Below are positions 32,382-43,218 of a DNA stretch of 64,000 nucleotides, piece by piece. A program made the position numbers and the translations under genes. This stretch comes from an uncultured Planctomycetota bacterium (GTDB taxonomy: Bacteria; Planctomycetota; Phycisphaerae; UBA1845; UTPLA1): the NCBI GenBank assembly GCA_900696465.1, contig CAADGE010000046.1, forward strand, positions 203,858-267,857, read 5' to 3'. The notes below the pieces were generated by a model. The model had not been told where the DNA came from. It did no database searches and was given only the letters and a program-made list of their open reading frames with translations. Each line of letters begins with the position of its first letter. Positions within the stretch are counted from its first letter, which is position 1.

Positions 32382-33626
32382 TCACCGCGGCGCCGCGGAT
32401 GATTCGACCTGCCAATCGGCGCCCTGTCGAAACACACGCCGATAGAGTGTGTCGCGCTCGACCGGAACGCGCCCCGCCTCACGGATGAGCGCTTGCATCC
32501 GCTCGATGGTCATCTCCTGATGCGTACTGCCCGCCCCACCTTCACGCTTGGTGATGTCATACCAGACCACCGTGCCGTCCATGTCATCGCAGCCGAAGTT
32601 CAGTGCCACCTGGGCCAGCTTGGCCGACTGCATAATCCAGAAGGCCTTGATGTGCGGGATGTTGTCCAGCATCAGCCGACTGATGGCCAGCGTCTTGAGA
32701 TCCGTCAGCCCGGTCGGCCCGGGCAATTCGCCCAGTTCGCTGCCCTCGGGAATGAACGACAGCGGGATAAAACAGTTGAACGCCGCCTTGCGCGTAGCCA
32801 GCGATTCATCCTGGTGCTCGCGCAGCTTGATCATGTGCGTGATCCGCTCCTCGGGTCGCTCGATGTGGCCGTAGAGCATCGTGGCATTGGTGTACATGCC
32901 GATCTCGTGGGCCGTGCCATGGACGTCGAACCATCCCTGCTCGCCCACCTTGTTGCGGTACGCCTCGTCATGAACGCGGTCGTCAAAAATCTCCGCCCCG
33001 CCGCCGGGCAGACTGCCGAGCCCCGCGTCTCGAAGCCGCTCCAGCACCTCGCGAATGCTCAGCCGAGGGCGGGAAATCCGCGTGAAATGGATGATCTCGA
33101 TGGCGGTAAAGGCCTTGATGTGCAGTTTCGGTGCTGCCGCACAAATGGCACGACACATGTCGAGATAGTATGAAAACGGCAACTTCGGATGCAGCCCGCC
33201 CACGATGTGCACCTCCGTCGCTCCTGCGGCCGCGGCCTGACGGGCCAGCTCCGCGATCTCCTCGACGGTGTACTCGTACGAGTTCAGCTTCGGCGCGTCG
33301 CCGGCCATCGGCAGACTCAGCGCGCCGTCGTGCCCCACTTCCAGGCCGCGCGGATGCGGAGGCGCATCGCCCTTCTCGTATGGTCGGTAAAACGAACAGA
33401 ACTTGCACCGCAGGACACAGTAATTCGTGTAGTTAATATGCCGGTTGACGTTGTAGTAAGCAATATCGCCGTGCTGCCGCTCGCGTACGATGTTCGCCAG
33501 ACGGCCGATCTCGTGGATATCGCGCGAACAGTAGAGGCGCACGCCGTCCGCGTGGGTCAGCCGCTCGCCGGCCTCGACCTTCTCCGCGATGTCCTCCAGC
33601 GACGTGGCAGAAAGCGAAGCGATCAT
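32382..33626 (-). CDS. mqnE: Aminodeoxyfutalosine synthase MqnE
   Basis: A 414-residue radical SAM enzyme that joins 3-[(1-carboxyvinyl)oxy]benzoate with S-adenosylmethionine to form aminodeoxyfutalosine, the second step of the futalosine route to menaquinone. The 4Fe-4S cluster motif CVLRCKFC is at residues 70-77 after NVNRHINYTNY. HIVGGLHPKLPFSYY, FTAIEI, LPGGGAEIFDD and MYTNATMLYGHIE are conserved MqnE/MqnC-group segments, and the C-terminus has HIKAFWIM and NFGCDDMDGTVV. The last, together with length, separates MqnE from MqnC. It is 70 bases downstream of tRNA-Arg on the same strand. mqnA and mqnC are at 41177-43218; the remaining step genes are not seen. Confidence 0.93.
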   Translation of the reverse strand: MIASLSATSLEDIAEKVEAGERLTHADGVRLYCSRDIHEIGRLANIVRERQHGDIAYYNVNRHINYTNYCVLRCKFCSFYRPYEKGDAPPHPRGLEVGHDGALSLPMAGDAPKLNSYEYTVEEIAELARQAAAAGATEVHIVGGLHPKLPFSYYLDMCRAICAAAPKLHIKAFTAIEIIHFTRISRPRLSIREVLERLRDAGLGSLPGGGAEIFDDRVHDEAYRNKVGEQGWFDVHGTAHEIGMYTNATMLYGHIERPEERITHMIKLREHQDESLATRKAAFNCFIPLSFIPEGSELGELPGPTGLTDLKTLAISRLMLDNIPHIKAFWIMQSAKLAQVALNFGCDDMDGTVVWYDITKREGGAGSTHQEMTIERMQALIREAGRVPVERDTLYRRVFRQGADWQVESSAAPR

Positions 33627-34546: not shown

Positions 34547-36304
34547 TCAGGGAGCGAGCGGCGGTAGCTCTCGCTGCCCTGTCACCAGATCAGCAAACAT
34601 GCCGATGATGCTCTGCGGATCAGAGGCCTCGGCGGCGAGGCGGAGATTTCGCATCCCCTCTTCTGGAAGGCCGGAGTAAAGCTCGAGATAACCGAGCAGG
34701 AATCTCAGTTCCGGACTGTCAACCTTCTCAAGCTTGGATTCGAGATCGGCACGTCGTACGTCAAACACATCGAGCCGTCCGACCAGCCCCGGCAGATCGA
34801 TCCGAAATGCGGCAATCTGCGGGAAGCGCTCAATCCCGAGCATCAGCAAGCGAACGGCCGAACGATAGTCGCCTGCCGCGGCAAGGGCGTGGCCGCGCGC
34901 CAGCAATGGAAGCGGATTGAGCGGGTCGATGGTCGATGCAAGTTCGAAGTAGCGAGCCGCGTCATAGTATCGACCGGCTTGCAGTTCCATCTCACCGGCG
35001 CGGATGTATTCATTCAGGCGGTTCTGGTGTCGGCCGGCAAAAGTCGTCAGCGGGTGCTCCAAGGTCTGTGCTGCCCAGCGAGCCGCGGTTGAAAGTTCCA
35101 GGAACCCTTCGCTCGGCTTTCGAAGCAGGCCGCCGCGCTGAAGCTCTGCGGCCGAAGGGGTCTGCCCGATCGCATCCGCCGGAGCGGCCGATACGGGCTG
35201 GACCGAGACGGCATCAAACCCAAGGCGCGTCACACCCATCGACTGTGCCGCACCTACGGCACTGTAAAGGTCCGCGAAGCGATCGGCTCCCAGCGCTGCG
35301 GGCGGCTGTCCGGGATCTGCGGCCAGGCCCTCTGCAACGGGCATAAGAGGCGATCCATCCGTGGTTAGAACAGCAGCCCCATCCGCAGCGCCGACCGGTG
35401 TCGCCAGCGGCGATTGATCCGGAGGAGGCACGGAAGTATCAATTCTGCGAAGGGCGGGATCCTCGCTCAGCAGGCCGCCGCGCGACAGGGTTTCCTCCTC
35501 GGGAGTGGTCGTGCCGGGGGTGAGCGGTAACGACGACGAGGGCAGCACGGAAGTCGAACTCAGCGCCGACGGCCGGCTGGGCGGCGGCGGCGAGCCGAAG
35601 ATCGAAGAGCCCATCGCGTCTCGGTAGGGAGCAAGCGTTCGAGCGATGTCCCGACGGTCTAGACCGGTGCCGGCCGGCGTCAGCTTGATGCCGTATTCCG
35701 AGGCGGGCGTTCGTGGCGTCACGTTCGGCGTGGTCACGTTGACGCGGCGATCCTCTGCGGGCCGCAAGTCCTGCAAGAGTGAGGACGGCTTATAGTCAAT
35801 CGTAGCAGGATTGGGCGGGATAAAATTCGTGCTCTGCACCGTCGGCGAGCCCGGTTGATTCAGCCCGGCCCGGATGAACCCCAGGTCGGAGAAGGTCTCC
35901 GGCTGACCGTAGAAGAAATTCGATTCATAGGTATTGCCGCTCAGCACGTCGCGCAATCCAACGCTGCGCGCCTGAAAGCCCGAAAGACCCGCCGACGGCA
36001 GCGATCCGCGGAACTGATTGTTCTGCACGACCGGTGAGTAGCCCTTGAACCCCGCCAGACCGGTGACGTTCCCCGTGATGATCGCATTGGCCCGTGCACC
36101 GGGATCGTTCAGCCCAGGGCGGGTAATGTTGAAGCCCGAAGAGCCGACCTGCGGATTGTTGTCGAGCAGCCGACCGGCAGCGGAAGCATTCCCCTGGTTG
36201 ACACGGTGATCGATCTGCGCAATCGCGGAGCTTGTGCAGATCAGCGCGAGGCCGATCGACGCCCCCGACAGGATTCGCGATGAACGAGTCATGATGGCAC
36301 GCAT
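34547..36304 (-). CDS. Exported protein with C-terminal TPR-like repeats
   Basis: A 585-residue exported protein of unknown function. Starting at the ATG at 36304 the N-terminus is a signal peptide (SRILSGASIGLALICTSSAIAQ); ATGs at 36352 and 36292 are alternatives, none with a clear ribosome site. Residues 30-160 are Asn/Gly/Ser-rich with short repeated NNP/NNQ motifs, residues 180-380 are Pro/Ser/Thr-rich and likely disordered, and residues 420-585 hold TPR-like helices (YIRAGEMELQAGRYYDAARYFELAS, ALAAAGDYRSAVRLLMLGIERFP). It probably works as a periplasmic or surface scaffold. No neighbour suggests a partner. Confidence 0.65.
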   Translation of the reverse strand: MRAIMTRSSRILSGASIGLALICTSSAIAQIDHRVNQGNASAAGRLLDNNPQVGSSGFNITRPGLNDPGARANAIITGNVTGLAGFKGYSPVVQNNQFRGSLPSAGLSGFQARSVGLRDVLSGNTYESNFFYGQPETFSDLGFIRAGLNQPGSPTVQSTNFIPPNPATIDYKPSSLLQDLRPAEDRRVNVTTPNVTPRTPASEYGIKLTPAGTGLDRRDIARTLAPYRDAMGSSIFGSPPPPSRPSALSSTSVLPSSSLPLTPGTTTPEEETLSRGGLLSEDPALRRIDTSVPPPDQSPLATPVGAADGAAVLTTDGSPLMPVAEGLAADPGQPPAALGADRFADLYSAVGAAQSMGVTRLGFDAVSVQPVSAAPADAIGQTPSAAELQRGGLLRKPSEGFLELSTAARWAAQTLEHPLTTFAGRHQNRLNEYIRAGEMELQAGRYYDAARYFELASTIDPLNPLPLLARGHALAAAGDYRSAVRLLMLGIERFPQIAAFRIDLPGLVGRLDVFDVRRADLESKLEKVDSPELRFLLGYLELYSGLPEEGMRNLRLAAEASDPQSIIGMFADLVTGQRELPPLAP

Positions 36305-36590
36305 GACGCGAGCGGAAAGTCCGACGTCTGTTTCACACGAATCTCTATACATTATAAGCTCGCGAGCTTCGCATGTCCGCAGATTTCCCGAAACACCGCA
36401 GGGGGCTGGCGAGTGGACTCCGAGGATGCGGCTGCACGGGCCGCGCGCGGTCCTGCCCACTAAAGATCGGCCCCCTGCTCCTGTCGCCTTGAAATTCTCA
36501 CGGAATCGCACGAAGCATCCGCCCGCGGGATCGCCTCGGATGGCCCGCAGGCGATGCCTTCGACTTGACGCCGCATCGGCGATCGGGACC

Positions 36591-37028
36591 ATGGATCACA
36601 TGCATCCGTCGCCCATAACGCATTCTGGGCTCCTGAAGGTGATCCTGCTTCTGGTCACTCTCAGCATTGGCGGACAAGCCCCTGCGCAGAATCGTTCTCC
36701 GTCCGCCCCCGTCGATCCCCGAACCGCGGTCCTGCAGCAGCTCCGCTCGCAACCGATCGGCGAGGTCACATTGAAGGAGCTTTGCCCGTCGGACGAATTC
36801 CTGGGCCGCGTAGCGGATCGGATCATCCGCATGGACTATCCGGATCGATACCGTACGGTCCTCGCGCAGGTCGATGCATCGCAATTGATACAAACATCGA
36901 AGCCGGATGCGACGGCGGAACAGCGAAACGGTTCGACCGATCGACCGTTGGGCTATCTGCTCGTCGTCGCCGCTTTGATGATTTTCGTTCTCCTCTTTCG
37001 TCTGCTCCGGCGAAGGACCGCACCATGA
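36591..37028 (+). CDS. Small exported protein with C-terminal membrane helix
   Basis: A 145-residue protein of unknown function. The N-terminus carries a signal peptide (LKVILLLVTLSIGGQAPAQ) and the C-terminus a single membrane helix (LGYLLVVAALMIFVLLFRLL) with basic residues after it, so the middle 80 residues (including EVTLKELCPSDEFLGRVADRII) face the periplasm. The ATG at 36591 is followed by another at 36600. Its stop overlaps the next start (ATGATGA), so it is translationally coupled to the guanidino-modifying-type enzyme and may anchor or regulate it. Confidence 0.65.
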   Translation: MDHMHPSPITHSGLLKVILLLVTLSIGGQAPAQNRSPSAPVDPRTAVLQQLRSQPIGEVTLKELCPSDEFLGRVADRIIRMDYPDRYRTVLAQVDASQLIQTSKPDATAEQRNGSTDRPLGYLLVVAALMIFVLLFRLLRRRTAP

Positions 37029-38908
37029 TGAAGCGATCACAAACATTCCTGCTGGGCGTGTTTTCTACAACGCTGCTGCCGGTCGCCGCCATCGCGCAGT
37101 CGACCGAAACGGCAAGCCCGACCGTACAGGTCGTGCGCTACCAGCCCCGCCCGGAACTGCTCTCGGCGATCTCCGTATTGCGCGCGGACGTCCCTGTAGT
37201 GCGTGGCTTTCGCGCACCGCTGACCATGGAGGTCTTCTGGCCGCACGAGTTGCCGGACGCGCACAGCCCGCCGGAGTTTCGTGCCGCCGCCGCCCTCGTG
37301 ATGTCGCAACTCGCCTGCGACGGCCTGCTGCCGACGACGGTGCGCGCCGTGGACATCCTCAAGCTGCAGAATCACCCCGCGATGGGGCATCGCAAGCTGC
37401 TCCTGCTCCGCGCGGTCGGTCTGCCGGTCGATCTGTACGATTGGTTTCGCCCGCCGGGAAGCGCATCCGACGTCACTCTCATCGATTACATCACCACACT
37501 GCTCGCCCAGGGCCGAAGCGCCGAATCGATCATCCCCGAAGTGATGCAAGCGGCTTTTCTGCCGAAGCCGACGGTGCCGGGGCTTCGACTGGCCGCCGAG
37601 GACGGCCGCAGCCCGGTATCGCTCGTTCGTCTGCAACTTTCCCGAGGCAGCTACTGGCGCGCACCCGGCGACGGCAGCTCGGTCGACGTTGCGCGGCAGC
37701 TCGTTGATGCCCTCGACGGCGCGCGCGTCATGATCTCCACGAACTACGAAGCCCAGGCGGAAGTGATCGCTGCTGCCGAGACATGGGCGAGCGGTCGCAA
37801 AGGTGAGATCATCGTCGTTGCATCGCCCTGGAAGCCCGAGCAATGGGCGCAGGACAACGGCAAGCCCGCCGTCGTCGCCGCATCCGACGGGCGGCGTGAG
37901 ATCGTCACCCTCGCCCCGCGTTACGCCAGTCGCGGCGAGGAGCGGACCCGCTTCGATCCGGATGAGACCTTCACGCTCGTCGCTCTCTCCACCGCCGGCC
38001 TTCGTGTCGTGCAGTCGCCGCTTCTCTTCCAAGGTGGAAATCTACTGGTGATCGAAGATGCCAGCGGTCGCCGTACCCTGCTGGTGGGTGAAGCGGAGAT
38101 CATGCGAAATACCGCCCTGGGTCTGACGCGCGAACAGGTGCTTGGCGCCCTCGCCGTCGAGTGCGGCATCGAGCGATGTCTGGCCCTGCCGGCCGTTTCG
38201 TTTCACATCGATGTTGAGCTGTGTGCCCGGCGACATCGTAATCAGGTCGTCATTCTTGTGAATGATGAAGGTGCCGCTGCTCGCGGCATCGTTTCCATCG
38301 GCACAGAATGCCTCTCTCGCGGCGGCAAGCTGAATTCGCAAATCGCCGAGAAGGTGAGAGCCGCATTGGCCCGTGGTGAAGAAGCGAAGGCAGTCGAAAT
38401 GATCGCTCCGCAGGTGCTCAAACTCGGCGAAGGTGGCGCCTACCCGGAAAGCGTGGCGGAACTTTTCTCACGCGGCGAGACCGATGCAGCCGTCGCCAAC
38501 TTCGAACGATTCATGCTGGCGCTGGACATCCTGGCGGCGCGCAACATGGGTGAGGGCAATCTGCCATCGGACCCCGTCACACGCGCCTACATTATGTCCC
38601 TGCAACGACGACAGACAGAACGCGACCGGATGCACGCGACCCTGCGCAACGAGGGCTGGAGGATCGCAGCCATTCCCAGTCTGTCCGATGAACGGCGCGG
38701 ACTAAATTATGTCAATGGATTTCACGTTCCCGGCCGCTACCTCATGCCGGCCTACGGCGGTGTCTTTGCAGAGCAGGACGAAACTGCGGCGAAGGCCATC
38801 CGGTCGGTTTTCGACGGCGAGGTCGAAGTGGTACCCATCCTCTGCGGTGAGACTCAGCGTCGACTCGGCGCCATCCACTGCGCGGCTTCGATCTATCCTG
38901 AGGGATAA
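37025..38908 (+). CDS. Exported guanidino-modifying-superfamily enzyme (agmatine/peptidyl-arginine deiminase-like)
   Basis: A 627-residue exported protein. Residues 1-25 are a signal peptide (FLLGVFSTTLLPVAAIAQ). I place it in the GME superfamily that includes agmatine deiminase and Porphyromonas-type peptidyl-arginine deiminase from a set of motifs in the right order: WAQDNG at 274-279 (first catalytic Asp), QGGN at 336-339, FHIDVE with His394, and near the C-terminus LNYVNGFHVP, YGGVFAEQDETAAKAI and GAIHCAAS with Cys619 as nucleophile. Residues 55-230 form an N-terminal region not found in agmatine deiminases. It would hydrolyse a guanidino group outside the cytoplasm; the substrate is unknown. 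It is coupled to the small membrane protein gene before it. Superfamily call fairly firm, reaction inferred. Confidence 0.68.
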   Translation: MMKRSQTFLLGVFSTTLLPVAAIAQSTETASPTVQVVRYQPRPELLSAISVLRADVPVVRGFRAPLTMEVFWPHELPDAHSPPEFRAAAALVMSQLACDGLLPTTVRAVDILKLQNHPAMGHRKLLLLRAVGLPVDLYDWFRPPGSASDVTLIDYITTLLAQGRSAESIIPEVMQAAFLPKPTVPGLRLAAEDGRSPVSLVRLQLSRGSYWRAPGDGSSVDVARQLVDALDGARVMISTNYEAQAEVIAAAETWASGRKGEIIVVASPWKPEQWAQDNGKPAVVAASDGRREIVTLAPRYASRGEERTRFDPDETFTLVALSTAGLRVVQSPLLFQGGNLLVIEDASGRRTLLVGEAEIMRNTALGLTREQVLGALAVECGIERCLALPAVSFHIDVELCARRHRNQVVILVNDEGAAARGIVSIGTECLSRGGKLNSQIAEKVRAALARGEEAKAVEMIAPQVLKLGEGGAYPESVAELFSRGETDAAVANFERFMLALDILAARNMGEGNLPSDPVTRAYIMSLQRRQTERDRMHATLRNEGWRIAAIPSLSDERRGLNYVNGFHVPGRYLMPAYGGVFAEQDETAAKAIRSVFDGEVEVVPILCGETQRRLGAIHCAASIYPEG

Positions 38909-41176: not shown

Positions 41177-41998
41177 ATGACCAGCCCACCTGCCCTGATC
41201 GACCAAACCGCGACATCAACCACGGCCCTGACGACCTACGGCGTGGTCTCCTTCCTCAACGCCCGCCCGCTGCGGGAGTACCTGCCGGTCGGCGAAACCG
41301 TCGCTGTGCGACCGGAAGTCCCTTCCCGCCTGATCGAGTTGCTCGATGCGGGACAGTGCGACATCGCCCTTCTGCCGGTGGTCGACTACTGGCGAAACCA
41401 GGACCGCCTTGAGATCGTGTCCGACGCCTGTATCGCCAGCGACGGTGAGACGATGACCGTGCGGGTCTTTTCGCGCTGTCCCCCGGACCAGGTGGAGCGG
41501 CTGTTCGTCGATGGCGATTCGCACACCTCGATCGTGCTGGCACGGTTGATCTGGCTGGAGCTTTATGGTCGCCGGTTGGAGGTCATCCCCTGGCGTCCGG
41601 GCGAAGTCGGCGAATCGCCGGGATCCGATCCGGATGTGAAATCGATCCTCCTGATCGGCGACAAGGTCGTGCGCAGTGCGCCGCGCGGCTTCGGCTTTGA
41701 AGTGGACCTCGGCGCGGCCTGGAAACACCTGACGAATCTGCCGTTCGTCTTCGCCGCATGGTACGGGCGAAAAGGAAAGAATCATCTGCACATTGCACGG
41801 ATGCTCTCCGCCGCGCGCGATCAGGGCGTGCGCGAAGCGCGGCGGATCGCCCGGGAGTCGGCCGCTTCGCACGGCTGGCCCGTGGAAACTGCCGAGCGCT
41901 ACCTGTGCGACATCATGAAGTACAAGCTGACGCCGGCCATGCGCGCCGGGATGGACCGCTTCTTCTTCATGGCAGAGAACCACGGACTGTTCGAATGA
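41177..41998 (+). CDS. mqnA: Chorismate dehydratase MqnA
   Basis: A 273-residue enzyme with a periplasmic-binding-protein fold that dehydrates chorismate to 3-[(1-carboxyvinyl)oxy]benzoate, the first step of futalosine-dependent menaquinone synthesis. VVSFLNARPLREYLP at 24-38 holds the conserved N-A-x-P-L motif; PSRLIELLDAGQCDIALLPVVDY and ILLIGDKVV follow, with LPFVFAAWYGRKG near 190 matching the family. It ends in an ATGA overlap with mqnC, so the two are co-translated. The ATG at 41177 lacks a strong ribosome site, in line with many genes here. MqnE, which uses its product, is encoded 8 kb away. Confidence 0.93.
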   Translation: MTSPPALIDQTATSTTALTTYGVVSFLNARPLREYLPVGETVAVRPEVPSRLIELLDAGQCDIALLPVVDYWRNQDRLEIVSDACIASDGETMTVRVFSRCPPDQVERLFVDGDSHTSIVLARLIWLELYGRRLEVIPWRPGEVGESPGSDPDVKSILLIGDKVVRSAPRGFGFEVDLGAAWKHLTNLPFVFAAWYGRKGKNHLHIARMLSAARDQGVREARRIARESAASHGWPVETAERYLCDIMKYKLTPAMRAGMDRFFFMAENHGLFE

Positions 41999-43218
41999 GC
42001 GTCGCCGCCCTGTCACCGACCTCTGCCGCGCGAATTAGCACGGACGACCTGCGCGAGCTTTACCTGAGCAGTTCCATCCATGAGCTGGGCCGGCAGGCCT
42101 ACGAACGGACCCAGCGCCTGCACCCCGAGGACTACCGCACTTACGTCGTCGATCGCAACATCAACTACGCAAACTGGTGCACCGCCAAGTGCATCTTCTG
42201 CAACTTCAAGTCCGACCCGCCGGGAATGAACACCGGGCGAACCGATCTTCCCGCGGGCTACACGCTTACCTATGACGAGATCGGACGCAAGATCGAGGAA
42301 CTCGTCGCCATCGGCGGCACGCAACTGCTCATGCAGGGCGGGCTCGTGCCTTCGGAAGGTGCGGCGGGGCTGTCGTTCGACTGGTATCTCGACCTGATGC
42401 GCTTCATCCGGCGAAACTTCCCGACGGTTCACATCCACGCCTTCAGCCCGCCGGAGATTTTTGCGTTTCATCAGATCTTCGGCATGTCCATCCGCGAGGT
42501 CATCGCGCGGCTCATGGAAGCCGGCTTGAACACGATCCCCGGCGGGGGCGGGGAGATTCTGTCGGATCGCGTACGGCGGAAAATCGGCATCGGCAAGACG
42601 CTGACGCATGAATGGCTCGACGTGATGCGCGAAGCCCACAAGCTGGGCATGGTCACGAGCTGCACGATGATGTTCGGCCACATCGAGACGATCGACGAAC
42701 GATTTGAGCACCTGCGGCTCCTGCGCGACTTGCAGGATGAATCGCTCGCCCGCGGAAACGGCGGCGGCTTCGGGGCCTATATCTGCTGGACCTTTCAGCC
42801 GGACAACACCCCGCTGGGGCGGATGAAGAAGCTGAACGTCGAAACGTCAAAACATCGAAAGGTCGAAACGGTAAGAATCCAAAATCCAAAATCCAAAATC
42901 CAAAATCGGCCTGTCAACGACGGCAAGCATCTACTTCTCGCCGACGCGCATGAGTATCTGACGATGCTCGCCCTGTCGCGGCTTTATCTCGACAACATTC
43001 CCAATATCCAATCGAGCTGGGTGACGATGGGGCCGAAGATCGGGCAACTCGCCCTCTTCTACGGAGCCAACGACATGGGCAGCGTGATGATGGAGGAAAA
43101 CGTCGTCAGCGCCGCCGGGACGACCTATCGCCTCAACGAGCCCGAGATCCGCCGGCTCATCACCGACGCCGGCTGGCGACCGCAGAAGCGGGATTACTAT
43201 TACCGGCCGATCGGGTAA
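41995..43218 (+). CDS. mqnC: Cyclic dehypoxanthinyl futalosine synthase MqnC, with a repeat-derived insertion
   Basis: A 407-residue radical SAM enzyme that cyclises dehypoxanthinyl futalosine. The cluster motif is CTAKCIFC (Cys62, Cys66, Cys69) after DRNINYANW; LLMQGGLVPSEG, FSPPEIFAFH, LNTIPGGGGEIL and CTMMFGHIETIDERF are conserved, and NIPNIQSSWVTMGPKIGQLAL is typical near the C-terminus. Between FQPDNTPLG and ADAHEYLTMLALSRLYLDN sits an extra basic stretch of about 30 residues (about 278-308) encoded largely by 8-base and 7-base tandem repeats. Other MqnC proteins have only a short loop here. The frame is kept, so the enzyme is probably active with an enlarged surface loop. ATGA overlap with mqnA. 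Confidence 0.92.
   Translation: MSVAALSPTSAARISTDDLRELYLSSSIHELGRQAYERTQRLHPEDYRTYVVDRNINYANWCTAKCIFCNFKSDPPGMNTGRTDLPAGYTLTYDEIGRKIEELVAIGGTQLLMQGGLVPSEGAAGLSFDWYLDLMRFIRRNFPTVHIHAFSPPEIFAFHQIFGMSIREVIARLMEAGLNTIPGGGGEILSDRVRRKIGIGKTLTHEWLDVMREAHKLGMVTSCTMMFGHIETIDERFEHLRLLRDLQDESLARGNGGGFGAYICWTFQPDNTPLGRMKKLNVETSKHRKVETVRIQNPKSKIQNRPVNDGKHLLLADAHEYLTMLALSRLYLDNIPNIQSSWVTMGPKIGQLALFYGANDMGSVMMEENVVSAAGTTYRLNEPEIRRLITDAGWRPQKRDYYYRPIG
42838..42907 (+). repeat. Two adjacent short tandem repeats inside mqnC
   Basis: 42838-42869 holds four copies of an 8-base unit (GTCGAAAC, GTCAAAAC, ATCGAAAG, GTCGAAAC). After six bases, 42876-42907 holds 4.6 perfect copies of the 7-base unit AATCCAA. The second array encodes a 7-residue period (IQNPKSK). 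Composition is AT-rich against the GC-rich gene. Confidence 0.9.

Follow-up and report, generated by a model that had tools for sequence, protein, structure and literature searches.

Within a 64,000-nucleotide stretch of DNA from an uncultured Planctomycetota bacterium (the window), two overlapping genes encode an enzyme of the pentein fold, exported by the reading of its sequence, and a small partner protein, and the data argue strongly that the two work in physical partnership across their family. This coupling of enzyme and partner domain is the strongest result of our analysis. We interpret the enzyme as belonging to a distinct exported pentein family with a dedicated partner domain, which most likely acts on exported proteins or peptides and converts their arginine side chains to citrulline by deimination, a reading to which we give a probability of about one half. 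To our knowledge, almost all that is known of bacterial protein citrullination comes from a single oral pathogen, and literature searches returned nothing on this enzyme family. A distinct family of this kind, widespread in the environment and equipped with a partner of its own, would suggest that bacteria modify arginine extracellularly as a matter of course, and our findings point to a previously undescribed bacterial route for modifying proteins outside the cell. Furthermore, the enzyme and its partner would be amenable to study as a pair, and natural fusions are at hand for structural work on their purpose.

Coupling of the enzyme to a partner domain

The partner and enzyme genes (Table 1) overlap by four bases (ATGA). 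The enzyme starts at ATG 37025; the mechanical ORF start, at TTG 36782, is not the start. Both the membrane helix of the partner and the export signal of the enzyme are read from the sequence, the latter by inspection of the N-terminus.

Table 1. Features of the partner and enzyme genes (positions in the window)
Feature	Position	Strand	Description and basis
Partner gene	36591-37028	+	145 aa; signal peptide, then the conserved domain (~52 aa), a linker, a single membrane helix at the C-terminus and the basic tail RRRTAP (ORF and translation)
Conserved partner domain	36717..36872	+	LPxxFLRRxADRxIRxSYxxRxRxVV (alignment of 38 copies)
Predicted partner C-terminal transmembrane helix, LLVVAALMIFVLLFRLL	36957..37007	+	Hydropathy 2.96 over 17 residues
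Pentein (guanidino-group-modifying) enzyme, exported by sequence	37025-38908	+	627 aa (translation, Pfam, AlphaFold model, fold match)
Predicted enzyme signal peptide, MMKRSQTFLLGVFSTTLLPVAAIA-Q	37025..37099	+	Sequence; model disordered at residues 1-24
Enzyme extra N-terminal domain, mainly helical	37097..37564	+	About residues 25-180, ~155 aa (model secondary structure and confidence)
Catalytic pentein domain	37565..38905	+	Residues 181-627 (invariant columns; fold Z 27)
Codon of Asp277	37853-37855	+	
Codon of His394	38204-38206	+	
Codon of Asp396	38210-38212	+	
Codon of Asn564	38714-38716	+	
Codon of Cys619	38879-38881	+	
QWAQDNGK motif with Asp277	37841..37864	+	Human PAD4 counterpart QWMQDEME
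PRYASRGEE motif with Arg299	37916..37942	+	Arg299 conserved 27/27
LLFQGGN motif with Gln336	38021..38041	+	27/27; compared with AgDI and PPAD-like sequences
Large helical insertion in catalytic domain	38267..38650	+	About residues 415-542 (model secondary structure)

Across 53 loci, the partner domain is a separate protein directly upstream of the enzyme in 17, is fused to the enzyme N-terminus in 27 (four of these calls rest on weak matches, E 1e-4 to 1e-2) and is absent from nine, three of which begin at a contig end; six loci, mostly from Verrucomicrobiota, seem to be without it. All 17 split partners paired with an enzyme, a count that omits one unrelated weak match in locus L043, carry a membrane helix at the C-terminus (mean hydropathy 2.1-3.2) with a short basic tail behind it; the N-terminus is hydrophobic in almost every one. 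Fused forms have no membrane helix between partner domain and enzyme. The split or fused state changes at least five times on a quick tree, on which the well-supported branches alone force one change of the split state.

Co-occurrence of the two genes, which the first-pass annotation had proposed as a check, was strong. Specifically, among 101 genomes (the source genome of the window together with 100 relatives), 24 hold relatives of the enzyme, two further weak matches (E 1e-5 and 1e-4) being left out, and strong matches to the partner domain occur in 21 of these 24 and in none of the other 77. Each strong match adjoins an enzyme or is fused to one, with the exception of one in genome G083 that lies on a separate contig and is cut by the contig end; two matches near 22-24 bits are weak. 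No partner domain was found in 30 control loci with other PF04371 enzymes, and the domain has no matching Pfam family. Taken together, the natural fusions and the exclusive co-occurrence make a strong case for physical partnership, and the coupling to a small membrane-anchor protein is thus much firmer than had been claimed from the window by itself.

Each enzyme would accordingly be paired with a dedicated partner domain of ~52 aa. In split loci such as that of the window, the separate membrane-anchored partner would hold the exported enzyme on the outer side of the membrane, and in the fused form the partner domain would make up the N-terminal part of the enzyme. Two loci (L054:3628-7707 (+) and L028:2656-6444 (+)) carry a membrane 4Fe-4S polyferredoxin with TPR repeats in frame ahead of the partner domain and enzyme, and in a third (L045:2610-4641 (+)) a polyferredoxin gene is the directly upstream neighbour of the enzyme; these arrangements again place the enzyme at the membrane.

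Fold, catalytic residues and phylogeny

The first-pass annotation had described an exported guanidino-modifying-type enzyme, and this description is borne out by the signal peptide in the sequence, by Pfam and by the fold. Pfam PAD_porph (PF04371) covers residues 251-625 (E 7e-13; 48.9 bits against a gathering cut-off of 25) and is matched by 24 of the 27 aligned family members at E up to 0.1, and NCBIfam has a model for neither the enzyme nor the partner gene. The AlphaFold model (pLDDT 90, pTM 0.89) has the five-fold alpha/beta propeller of the pentein superfamily. Fold similarity had been set beforehand as the test on which the assignment could fail; VIA-align returned Z 27.5 to an agmatine deiminase (AgDI; 2jer), 27.4 to the Porphyromonas-type deiminase (PPAD; 6i0x), 23.2 to PAD3 and 23 to PAD4, with AgDI and PPAD tied. 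The first Foldseek ranks were taken by 1xkn, agmatine deiminases, PPAD and human PAD. A PDB sequence search with the enzyme profile found no pentein because the profile is too divergent, whereas a single-sequence search did find 1xkn.

Hydrolase, dihydrolase and amidinotransferase chemistries all occur within the pentein superfamily (PMC8826395), and Gln336 of the window enzyme is unusual, which could suit an amidinotransferase, a dihydrolase or a demethylating hydrolase, with arginine in exported proteins or peptides as the substrate. We regard such a reaction as decidedly improbable, given that AgDI and PPAD rank first by both sequence and fold and that DDAH and arginine dihydrolase fall far lower.

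Asp277, His394 and Cys619 are present as had been proposed, with correct numbering from ATG 37025, and Asp396 and Asn564 complete the residue set of the pentein superfamily; none of the five varies among the 27 aligned members. Also invariant are W274, R299, Q336-G-G-N339, E356, R361, N362, N492 and D501, and Arg303 is present in 26 members. Over their full length, relatives from across an order are 33-50% identical to the window protein, conservation that places the family far beyond chance. That the protein is a catalytically dead scaffold is very improbable in the face of five catalytic residues kept by members so divergent. In an active enzyme of this kind, Cys619 would act as the nucleophile and His394 as the acid/base, while Asp277 and Asp396 would hold the guanidinium and Asn564 would polarise the Cys.

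The best structural alignments mostly begin at residues 181-186, which sets off residues 25-180 as the extra N-terminal domain that had been noticed earlier. A large helical insertion between His394 and Asn564, absent from the first-pass annotation, is longer than in PPAD or AgDI. His394 and Asn564 of the window enzyme are 170 residues apart, compared with 61 for the PPAD pair and 117 for that of PAD4, whose catalytic His we take to be H471. The PPAD residues behind this spacing are H236 and N297, and the PAD4 Asn is N588 (PMC4487231).

A quick tree, which has long branches and of which the separation alone is used, shows three separate groups, namely the window family, the PPAD-like proteins encoded in related genomes, and the canonical AgDIs (SH-aLRT 100 for the window family and 97 for the PPAD-like group). 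This sequence-based placement makes the family a third clade, next to the agmatine deiminases and the PPAD-like enzymes. A scan of 84,980 genomes yielded 40 loci, which by record title come from Planctomycetota/Phycisphaerae or Verrucomicrobiota MAGs, a few being labelled only "bacterium". The window's own genome has a second copy of the enzyme (L023:5001-6935 (-)), which comes with a split partner of its own and with two of the lysyl-oxidase-like neighbours discussed below. It also has a separate long PPAD-like deiminase (L001:994-2796 (-)), a type found likewise in L134-L148. The earlier statement that such chemistry is rare in bacteria needs qualifying, in that this different, long PPAD-like class (PF04371 match) is present in about 45 of the 101 related genomes, and exported enzymes of the citrullinating type may be common across this order.

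Comparison with known deiminases and the likely substrate

Three known groups invite comparison. The window enzyme resembles PPAD in its predicted export, its pentein fold (Z 27), its Cys/His/Asn/Asp/Asp set, its GGN at the site where AgDI has LEGG (TGGN in PPAD) and an Arg 22 residues past the first Asp. Unlike PPAD, which has WxRD and YNRPRPND, the window family has WxQD (WAQD) and PRYASR, along with the helical insertion, the extra N-terminal domain, the partner domain and a clade of its own; the separate clade and the missing motifs set it apart from PPAD proper. With AgDI the enzyme shares the pentein fold (Z 27) and the catalytic set, yet it is predicted to be exported, lacks FNAWxKY, is about 250 residues longer and falls in a separate clade; the Gln that replaces the Glu of LEGG in all 27 members places it outside the agmatine deiminases. 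The animal and cyanobacterial-type PADI enzymes (PAD2, PAD4) are similar in fold (Z 20-23), in QWxQD and in the helical insertion that interrupts the catalytic domain, and PRxxxRG of the window family resembles their PRNRG. Unlike them, the window enzyme has no Ig-like domains, and none of the Pfam PAD domains by which we defined PADI membership (PAD_N, PAD_M, PAD_C) was detected in it, PF04371 alone being reported at E up to 1. At the positions of PAD4 E353 and E411, presumably its Ca1 ligands, the window family has Lys/Arg and Leu/Ile/Met.

The motifs also bear on the substrate. In PPAD, C351, H236 and N297 are catalytic, D130 and D238 grip the guanidinium, and R152 and R154 bind the substrate backbone (PMC4487231). 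Arg299 of the window enzyme lies 22 residues past Asp277, which is the spacing of PPAD Arg152 after Asp130; Arg303 misses the position of the second substrate-binding Arg (PPAD, PAD4) by two residues, and the backbone-binding pair is matched in part only. The Glu of the agmatine-deiminase LEGG corresponds to Gln336, whereas canonical AgDIs of related genomes keep LEGG. Since profile comparisons gave only local matches, in the Cys/Asn region (against the PPAD-like paralogue) and at QWxQD (against a PAD4 stretch), elsewhere the residues were equated by motif and spacing. The Gln in place of the LEGG Glu, together with an invariant Arg at the PPAD/PAD backbone-binding spacing, makes agmatine an unlikely substrate, and the motifs appear to favour amino-acid-like or peptidyl arginine. 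The original suggestion of arginine or agmatine chemistry is therefore narrowed to its first half, and protein citrullination by the window enzyme is plausible.

It is also conceivable, if rather doubtful, that the family comprises exported deiminases that act on a small guanidino compound, free arginine or another, and serve nitrogen scavenging or acid resistance. The pentein fold with its full catalytic set and the tied Z of AgDI and PPAD would fit such an enzyme, as would the arginines, because a backbone-binding pair is common to PADs and arginine deiminases (PMC4487231). AgDIs and arginine deiminases process free substrates, and their active sites are closed (PMC4487231). However, no arginine catabolism genes were seen in the neighbour clusters, the AgDI Glu has given way to Gln throughout the family, and a membrane-anchored dedicated partner with large exported neighbours would better suit a macromolecular substrate. 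We infer that the enzyme more probably deiminates peptidyl arginine and that the split form would be tethered at the membrane.

Neighbouring proteins with a probable lysyl-oxidase fold

In 25 of the 53 loci the enzyme has, within 1.5 kb, a large exported protein that belongs to a single family, and in 24 of the 25 the two are encoded on the same strand. Matches to this family reach 1e-136 or better for close neighbours, against weak ones of about 1e-6 to 1e-8 in control loci. Many members carry a dockerin-like C-terminal tail, and weak matches to the profile may be to that tail alone. The family, made up of large exported planctomycete proteins, is multi-copy (members include L035:3180-4631 (-), L023:3160-4626 (-), L085:8004-9461 (+) and L037:2291-4696 (-)) and extends to genomes that lack the enzyme; its profile matches 99 of the 101 genomes, often many times, and we rejected the idea that it is exclusive to enzyme-bearing genomes.

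The neighbour family likely has a lysyl-oxidase-like fold. The top structural match for a model of one member (pLDDT 78) was LOXL2 (Z 10.0 over 164 residues), and the family profile is collinear with lysyl oxidases (pairwise P 6e-5). The local match sets invariant K112 and Y143 on the quinone-forming Lys and Tyr of lysyl oxidase, which in LOXL2 are K653 and Y689 (PMC9694262). Two motifs, SWLKHGF and CSDPYTAxRNG, are invariant or nearly so. The proteins have no match to PF01186 (lysyl oxidase), and the HxHxH copper site of lysyl oxidases is not kept: H84, before K112, is invariant, and the next positions are Val, Ile and Gln/Gly.

Present at about half of the loci, these neighbours would be the best candidates for substrates or co-acting proteins of the enzyme. 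A fuller version of the preferred reading, in which a peptidyl-arginine deiminase, tethered to the membrane when split and self-contained when fused, depends on its partner domain and acts on the neighbouring lysyl-oxidase-fold proteins, and arginine and lysine modification of a bacterial surface layer are linked, is unlikely in our estimation. The neighbour is absent from the window locus and from its nearest clade (L024, L025 and L026).

The other conserved neighbours that we examined are confined to the window's own clade. ABC and UvrA ATPases, present in several loci, were considered as linked genes and rejected as a generic cluster. In the window, a TPR protein with a likely signal peptide (34547-36592 (-)) is divergent from the partner gene and keeps its place in L024, L025 and L026 by synteny. 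The ATG listed for it (36592) overlaps the partner start, and the true start is probably further in. Flanking genes at 32382-33626 (-), 41177-41998 (+) and 41758-43218 (+) resemble, by eye, those of the futalosine menaquinone pathway (MqnA-like and MqnC/MqnE-like).
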